Positions 3,627 through 59,594 of a stretch of DNA of 64,000 bases are shown here, one piece after another. Every line of letters starts with the position of its first letter. Within the stretch, counting starts at the first letter, position 1. This stretch comes from Rhodothermales bacterium (GTDB lineage Bacteria > Bacteroidota > Rhodothermia > Rhodothermales > JANQRZ01): NCBI GenBank assembly GCA_039944855.1, contig JBDUXZ010000024.1, positions 1 through 64,000 of the forward strand. Reading direction: 5' to 3'. Under the pieces are notes generated by a model, which made no database searches, was not told where the DNA came from, and saw nothing but the letters and a program-made list of their open reading frames with translations. A program made the translations under genes and the position numbers.

Positions 3627-3720
3627 TTGTCATTGCGAGCGACTGAAAGGAGCGCGGCAATCTCCCGATTCCAGCAGCCTGAAGGAGATTGCCGCGTCGC
3701 TGCGCTCCTCGCAATGACAA
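3627..3720. repeat. Intergenic palindromic repeat, TCATTGCGAG family, copy 1
   Basis: The ends TTGTCATTGCGAG (3627-3639) and CTCGCAATGACAA (3708-3720) are perfect inverted repeats. The arms continue inward through GGCAATCTCC and GGAGATTGCC around a short central loop. The left arm carries a 'GACTGAAAGGAGCG' module and the right arm a 'GCAGCGACG' module (read as reverse complement). It lies between convergent genes, where its transcript would fold into a long hairpin that could also end transcription from both sides. Confidence 0.9.
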
Positions 3721-5472: not shown

Positions 5473-5602
5473 TGTCATTGCGAGGAGCGAAGCGACGCGG
5501 CAATCTCCTCCATATCAGCAGACCGAAGGAGATTGGCTCCGCCGAACCCTTCGGTATTGCCACGTCGCTACGGGACAAGTCCCTGCGCTCCTCACAATGA
5601 CA
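5473..5602. repeat. Intergenic palindromic repeat, TCATTGCGAG family, copy 2
   Basis: The left arm starts GTCATTGCGAGGAGCGAAG and reaches GGCAATCTCC. The right arm ends CTGCGCTCCTCACAATGACA. The right arm contains, in reverse complement, the same 'GGGACT.GTCCCGTAGCGACG' insert found in the left arm of the copy at 59471. The outer arm has one mismatch (CTCACAATGAC). It occupies most of the gap between the FAD dehydrogenase start (5322) and the sppA stop (5624), both on the minus strand. Confidence 0.88.
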
Positions 5603-12765: not shown

Positions 12766-14853
<2,088 letters not shown>

Positions 14854-14880
14854 CGGGAGCGCGCCCGCACCAAAACAGAG

Positions 14881-15082
14881 ATAGGCCGCCTCTCTCCCCA
14901 GAGAGGCGACCTATCGTGACGGCTGCGAGCCGTCTGGAAAATCGGGTGGCAGGCCCCACCACCAAGCCTGCCACCCGAATAGCGCCCTGGTTGGACCTGT
15001 CGGGCGCTATAGTGATTACGTCTCCATCCATCGACGTAATGGCACCTGTTGAGCGGAGAGTGCGGAGGACACCGGCCGCTCA
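14881..15082. other. Run of six adjacent perfect or near-perfect hairpins
   Basis: Six inverted repeats follow each other with gaps of 10 bases or less: 14881-14914 (about 14 bp, one mismatch, loop CCCC); 14918-14934 (7 bp, loop GCG); 14942-14978 (13 bp); 14979-15010 (9 bp, abutting the previous stem); 15015-15040 (8 bp); 15050-15082 (7 bp). The first may end metG transcription. The others have no T-tracts, so they are not simple terminators. The density suggests a structured non-coding RNA or long structured leader of the downstream peptidase gene. I recognise no known RNA family. Confidence 0.7.
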
Positions 15083-15285
15083 TCTACATATACGCGAGGG
15101 AGCCGTGCAGGAGGTCAAAGAAGGACGAAAAGTTTTTATTCCCTGATCTTTACTACGGATACGACCGGGCGGAGATGCAGGGTCTCAGGGTAGGAATCGC
15201 TGGCTTCCCGATGCCGGGGGCATTGCTCGTGTCCGTAACGTCCGGCCGTACCTTCGCCCTCTCCGAACGCTCTGCCTACGCCGTG

Positions 15286-19572: not shown

Positions 19573-19953
19573 ATGATGGAACGGCTCAAATGCAAGGCCT
19601 GCGGGTGCTATAGCATGGTCCCCGTGGCAATCGACAGCGATACGGAAGAGGACGAACTCCTACTCTTCACCGACGAACAGGAGTCCCGATTTTTCACCTG
19701 CCACGTGTGCGGCGACAACTGGCTCTCCGTGAAGCAGGTCGAGGAGGGAGACTGCCAGATCACGTTCGTCCACCAGATGGGGATGCAGCCCCTCCTCAAG
19801 CGCACCGCCCACATGGCGACGCCCATCGTGCTCAACGAAGGCACCGTCGGCCAGTGGAGCTACTACCTCGGCGACGACGAGGTCGCGGAGAGCGAGTGGC
19901 GTCACGTCCTCGGCAAGCGGCGCCGGGTCCTACGCGCGATCTGTACGAACTGA
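19573..19953 (+). CDS. Small zinc-ribbon protein of unknown function
   Basis: The 126-aa protein carries two Cys pairs, 'CKAC' at residues 7-10 and 'CHVC' at 43-46, which probably form one zinc ribbon with a 30-residue acidic insertion. The rest is a compact alpha/beta segment with several Trp and Tyr ('TVGQWSYYLGDDEVAESEWR') and a basic tail (GKRRRVLRAICTN). There is no signal peptide, so it is cytoplasmic. I do not recognise the family. The start may be the second ATG at 19576. It stands alone between two terminators. Confidence 0.75.
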   Translation: MMERLKCKACGCYSMVPVAIDSDTEEDELLLFTDEQESRFFTCHVCGDNWLSVKQVEEGDCQITFVHQMGMQPLLKRTAHMATPIVLNEGTVGQWSYYLGDDEVAESEWRHVLGKRRRVLRAICTN

Positions 19954-19973: not shown

Positions 19974-20029
19974 AAAAAAACTGCTCGACTCGCCGGTCAC
20001 CTCTCAAGGCTTCGGCGAGTCGAGCAGTT
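19974..20029 (-). terminator. Strong terminator with 17-bp stem
   Basis: Bases 19979-19995 and 20013-20029 are perfect inverted repeats (AACTGCTCGACTCGCCG and its complement) around a 17-base loop. Read on the minus strand the stem is followed by seven T (19974-19980 on plus are A), an ideal intrinsic terminator for the nuclease gene at 20177-21316. On the plus strand TTGTTCTT follows, so it may also stop the zinc-ribbon gene. Confidence 0.88.
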
Positions 20030-20123
20030 GTTCTTCCCGCATTAATAGGGTGGGGCGTTCTTGGCCCGCGACTACAACATAGGGGAATCCCCCAGCGAAG
20101 TCAAGGGCGTTCCACCAAAACGA

Positions 20124-52861: not shown

Positions 52862-52971
52862 TGTCATTGCGAGCGGAGCGAAGCAACCCCTCAGGGCTCG
52901 GCGCAGCCAATCTCCAAAGGGATAAGGAAGCCTCAGGAGGTTGCCGCGTCGCTTCGCTCCTCGCAATGACA
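52862..52971. repeat. Intergenic palindromic repeat, TCATTGCGAG family, copy 3
   Basis: TGTCATTGCGAG at 52862 and CTCGCAATGACA ending at 52971 are perfect inverted ends. The inner part holds GCCAATCTCC and GGAGGTTGCC arms with more mismatches than in the other copies. CCCTTTTT follows the right arm. It sits between the receptor stop (52839) and the DUF4249 start (52990), leaving 18 bases for a ribosome-binding region. Confidence 0.88.
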
Positions 52972-59448: not shown

Positions 59449-59594
59449 CCTAACAAAACCCAACAACGCTGTCATTGCGAGGAGCGCAGGGACTCGTCCC
59501 GTAGCGACGCGGCAATCTCCCTCGGTCTGCTAGAATCGGGAGATTGCCGCGCTCCTTTCAGTCGCTCGCAATGACGGCATGGGGTTTTGTTAGG
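59449..59594. repeat. Nested palindrome: TCATTGCGAG repeat (copy 4) inside a 13-bp inverted repeat
   Basis: The core 59471-59575 begins GTCATTGCGAGGAGCGCAGG and ends CGCTCGCAATGAC, with inner GGCAATCTCC/GGAGATTGCC-type arms. Outside it, CCTAACAAAACCC (59449-59461) and GGGTTTTGTTAGG (59582-59594) form a perfect 13-bp outer stem. The left core arm matches the right arm of the copy at 5473, and the right core arm matches the left arm of the copy at 3627. It lies between convergent genes. Confidence 0.9.

Follow-up and report, generated by a model that had tools for sequence, protein, structure and literature searches.

The hairpin row between metG and a peptidase gene

Within the window, the whole 64,000-nucleotide stretch of Rhodothermales DNA analysed here, the intergenic gap from the end of metG (14853) to the likely start of an M1 peptidase gene (about 15286) carries six inverted repeats at 14880-15082. 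All six repeats proposed in the initial annotation were recovered, and its description of five perfect stems with the third and fourth abutting proved accurate. Hairpin 1 (14880-14915; 16 bp) is the one with a mismatch, and together with TCTGTTTT it makes up a predicted intrinsic terminator of a minus-strand RNA (14872..14915, minus strand; 16 pairs, one of them G-U). The remaining hairpins are described as read on the minus strand. Hairpin 2 (14918..14934; 7 bp, 3-nt loop) occurs in the window genome only and is missing from the aligned relatives. Hairpin 3 (14942..14978; 13 bp) has a conserved stem and an invariant 11-nt loop, UUGGUGGUGGG, and is followed by TTTT; it is abutted by hairpin 4 (14979..15010; 9 bp), in which the stem AUAGCGCCC/GGGCGCUAU is conserved and the loop has diverged. 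Hairpin 5 (15015..15040; 8 bp, loop GAUGGAUGGA) is not conserved, and hairpin 6 (15050..15082; 7 bp) would be the 5' hairpin of the RNA proposed below. When folded on the minus strand, hairpin 6 gains an inner stem that includes G-U pairs, and at its place the relatives have a hairpin of other sequence, recognised by eye and also present in the minimum free energy (MFE) fold of one of them, G002.

The density of hairpins had been called unusual, and so it is: the gap holds six disjoint hairpins with perfect stems of at least 7 bp, whereas 500 dinucleotide shuffles gave 0.44 on average and never more than 4, and no 210-nt segment elsewhere in the window contains more than three. Folding z-scores of the hairpin region were -6.9 on the plus and -6.6 on the minus strand, and in a composition-corrected fold scan of the whole window the segment 14851-15050 ranked first on both strands.

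Several other strong folds of the window are explained by a dispersed, MITE-like palindromic repeat with four copies (3629-3718, 5474-5601, 52863-52970 and 59471-59575). Its ends, GTCATTGCGAGNRGC...GCAATGAC, gave 8 matches where 0.08 were expected, and at least two copies share an inner GGCAATCTCC/GGAGATTGCC stem. Separately, a long hairpin at about 19975-20035 (AACTGCTCGACTCGCCG...CGGCGAGTCGAGCAGTT), flanked by A/T runs and lying just past the end of a short ORF at 19953, is probably a bidirectional terminator.

A conserved two-hairpin core with changing neighbours

We searched 99 relatives at the DNA level, and convincing core matches were returned only from G001, a contig of the Rhodothermales MAG IP29b_bin.81, and G002, which represent the other two sampled genomes of the family. 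Both matches span exactly hairpins 3 and 4 (14942-15010) at 83% identity. The comparison with relatives for compensatory changes that the initial annotation had proposed thus showed hairpins 3 and 4 to be conserved with their pairing kept, while hairpins 1, 2 and 5 show no conservation as such. The three-genome alignment of the core comprises about 70 columns with no gap inside the two hairpins, and all 61 of 61 scored cells (100%) retain pairing, which drops to only 36-48% when the partner is shifted by 1-3 columns. Two compensatory pairs were found, one per helix: the stem of hairpin 3 has a U-A / C-G exchange, that of hairpin 4 has one such pair and a G-C to G-U change, and neither contains a broken pair. 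As 54 of 500 column shuffles reached its covariation measures, we regard this covariation as suggestive only; it is not decisive with three sequences from two genera.

Conservation is sharply centred. Identity reaches 19/20 over hairpin 3, as compared with 3-8/20 in most flanking blocks, and a second peak (12-14/20) coincides with the promoter-like block described below. None of the 11 positions of the hairpin 3 loop has changed among the three genomes, whereas about half of the 14-nt hairpin 4 loop has. Around the core, the overall fold is not constant, and the whole-locus folds of the relatives differ. In the MFE fold of G002, the segment matching hairpin 5, GACATACA, pairs with TGTATGTC beyond hairpin 3; the outer stem there, GACAUACA/UGUAUGUC, surrounds hairpins 3 and 4. 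The window genome lacks the 3' partner of this stem, and its corresponding segment folds locally as hairpin 5. In place of hairpin 1, G002 has another terminator-like end.

The genes on either side of the core are not the same in the relatives. In both G001 and G002 it is flanked by a VWA-domain gene and uppS, and the orthologues of metG (81-83% identical) and of the peptidase (73-74%) lie far from it; the VWA gene of the window genome (92% identical) has other genes after it, and uppS does not adjoin it. Because its neighbours differ in this way, the core is an autonomous unit, unlinked to any fixed protein gene. This bears directly on the initial annotation, which had suggested either a structured RNA or a structured leader of the peptidase gene: the former is supported by the conserved core, its pairing-preserving changes and the invariant loop, and the latter is not. 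A riboswitch- or attenuator-like 5' leader of the peptidase mRNA would be read on the plus strand. It would fit the order seen in the window, where the hairpins precede the peptidase, and the plus-strand fold is as unusual as that of the minus strand. However, the peptidase orthologues of both relatives lack the core, which if read on the plus strand would there be antisense to uppS; the mismatches favour the minus strand, opposite to that of the peptidase; and even in the window the hairpin row ends about 200 nt from the peptidase start codon. Given the relatives, a leader therefore appears largely refuted, and we consider it very unlikely.

The same change of location might recall a DNA-level element, such as a dispersed or mobile repeat, an attC-like site or a cruciform, since the core sits in different places in the two genera. 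Against this, each genome holds a single convincing copy, and the possibility raised at the outset that the gap consists of dispersed repeats found no second copy in the window's own genome. Moreover, the G·U-type pairs indicate RNA, and the promoter-like block is conserved alongside the core. A DNA-level element is thus already disfavoured, and we give it hardly any credence.

To the extent of our sampling, the RNA appears limited to one family. A degenerate hairpin pattern recovered only the three known copies from 245 genomes of the class. In GTDB genome contigs it returned just G001 and one chance match, apparently in pyrE coding sequence, and in viral contigs nothing. A covariance model of the core, run on 395 genomes of the phylum and, with laxer filters, on 40 relatives, likewise gave nothing further that was convincing; the four of seven weak extra matches that we looked at (L059, L068, L069 and L070) are all hairpins between genes.

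Probable transcribed strand, promoter-like block and predicted terminators

In the initial annotation only hairpin 1 was taken to resemble a transcript end. This holds on the minus strand; it does not on the plus strand, where GTGACGG follows with no T run, and hairpin 3 with its TTTT offers a second possible minus-strand end. Between 14700 and 15500 the terminator scan scored a single site, 14915-14872 on the minus strand. In G002 the scan marks the end of the hairpin 3 copy, and in G001 the terminator at the 3' side of hairpin 3 is weak. Elsewhere, hairpin 1 with its flank CCTATCGTGACG (14883-14927) resembles L053:952-996, a hairpin just past a gene end on contig C22 of G001 (80% over 45 nt), and the two perhaps have a terminator type in common.

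Upstream of the row, as read on the minus strand, lies a promoter-like block. Its upstream element, TTTGACC (TTGACC; 15107..15119, minus strand), is a consensus match only, and its putative downstream element, TATATGTA (15081..15092, minus strand), corresponds to GTATGTACA in the relatives, with the same N20 spacer. The block takes the form TTGACC-N20-TATRTG/TATGTA, in which TTGACC and TAT lie 26 nt apart, counted from first base to first base. The upstream element reads TTGACC in the window, ATGACC in G002 and TTGACC in G001, and in each of these genomes it precedes the core by 101-104 nt. A sigma-70 consensus scan gave no match at the block. Bacteroidota promoters have a -33/-7 geometry with the motifs TTTG and TAnnTTTG (PMC7366714); the 26-nt start-to-start distance of the block is similar, while its letters fit only partly.

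Both the mismatch of hairpin 1 and that of hairpin 4 in the relatives are A·C on the plus strand and G·U on the minus strand. Because these mismatches become G-U pairs, the sole scored terminator lies on the minus strand and the promoter-like block keeps its distance, we infer that the minus strand is indicated as the transcribed one. Fold energies give it no preference (z-scores of -6.6 vs -6.9 on the plus strand; -5.75 vs -6.58 in the composition-corrected scan).

The terminators themselves suggest another explanation, in which the row comprises terminators and spacer hairpins lying between metG and the adjacent gene; it would hold no RNA gene, and the core would be just a strong terminator. 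A T run follows each of hairpins 1 and 3 on the minus strand, weak second-rank matches of the core model in these genomes are intergenic hairpins that appear to be plain terminators, and the hairpin-1-like stretch recurs once in G001 at the identity given above. Yet plain terminators would not be expected to keep an 11-nt loop while the adjoining loop diverges, nor does this account for the second hairpin and the upstream promoter-like block, which are also kept, and no minus-strand gene ends just upstream in the window. We therefore regard such a cluster as improbable.

A candidate small RNA and its relation to known RNAs

Taken together, these data lead us to favour, with somewhat more confidence than doubt, a stand-alone small RNA gene, present in one copy and read from the minus strand, with a putative promoter of its own and one or more intrinsic terminators. 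The candidate RNA would begin near 15080 and end near 14938 or 14872 (150-210 nt). Its functional core would be the hairpin 4–hairpin 3 pair, presenting the G-rich loop UUGGUGGUGGG as a putative contact site, and the remaining hairpins would protect and end the transcript, being free to change. The likeliest role of the loop, which we propose only tentatively, would be that of a pre-organised seed for base pairing with CCACCACC-like mRNA stretches. A search for the exact 11-nt loop complement returned no gene in common to the genomes, only the RNA gene itself and one other place, in G001.

The main alternative to mRNA pairing by the loop is protein binding. Here the RNA would be a ribonucleoprotein scaffold or would sequester a protein, and the invariant G-rich loop, perhaps together with the hairpin 4 loop, would be the protein site, with no mRNA pairing. 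Consistent with this, no exact target recurs, the GC-rich fold is very stable, as opposed to several largely unfolded Bacteroides sRNAs (PMC7366714), and the loops of hairpins 3 and 4 can pair in all three genomes with different letters per genus (-6.8 to -8.4 kcal/mol). This candidate loop–loop pairing is, however, short and differs by genus. Overall we judge protein binding rather unlikely, if the foremost competitor. More speculative still, and in our view a long shot, is a new class of regulatory or scaffold RNA, compact and almost fully folded and confined to a single family of Rhodothermales, whose invariant G-rich loop would kiss the adjoining loop through sequences that differ by genus.

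Known identities were considered in turn. The initial annotation had matched the row to no known RNA class, and this stands: the covariance search against Rfam that it had suggested matched no family at the gathering cut-off, and at a permissive E-value gave only a sub-threshold match to ftsZ-DE outside the core. The ftsZ-DE RNA (RF02985) resembles the match region (14853-14917, plus strand; 27.7 bits) in having two hairpins with a CACCAAAACA-like linker, but its gathering score is far higher (72.2 bits), the match covers the metG end and hairpin 1 instead of the core, and no such match was found at the relatives' loci. 6S RNA folds into a single extended rod interrupted by a central bubble. 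It is similar in length to the hairpin-row RNA, which differs in being a series of separate hairpins without a match to the 6S model; the model (RF00013) in fact matched nothing in five Rhodothermales genomes (G000, G001, G002, G004 and G013). The genome's own tmRNA and RNase P RNA lie elsewhere, at C5:518517 and C5:104092, respectively. A small protein gene was also rejected, with substitutions distributed 3:6:3 over codon positions 1:2:3 in the sole shared open frame.

Parallels also come from the trans-encoded sRNAs of Bacteroidota, such as GibS of Bacteroides thetaiotaomicron (PMC7366714), which are likewise intergenic, with their own promoter (putative in our case) and a Rho-independent terminator. 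These sRNAs also share a conserved single-stranded stretch as likely contact site and an occurrence in few genera (PMC7366714). GibS, however, has an unfolded 5' seed, and Bacteroides sRNAs average about 35% GC, several being largely unstructured (PMC7366714), whereas the hairpin-row RNA is GC-rich and almost fully folded, with its conserved unpaired letters in a hairpin loop. We view it as a new RNA family of an already known kind, real, lineage-restricted as far as sampled and probably functional. In a limited literature search, we came across no small RNA gene of the Rhodothermota lineage that had been characterised. If our reading is true, the hairpin-row RNA would be a first candidate riboregulator for this lineage, and would stand in contrast to the AT-rich, partly unfolded sRNAs of Bacteroides.
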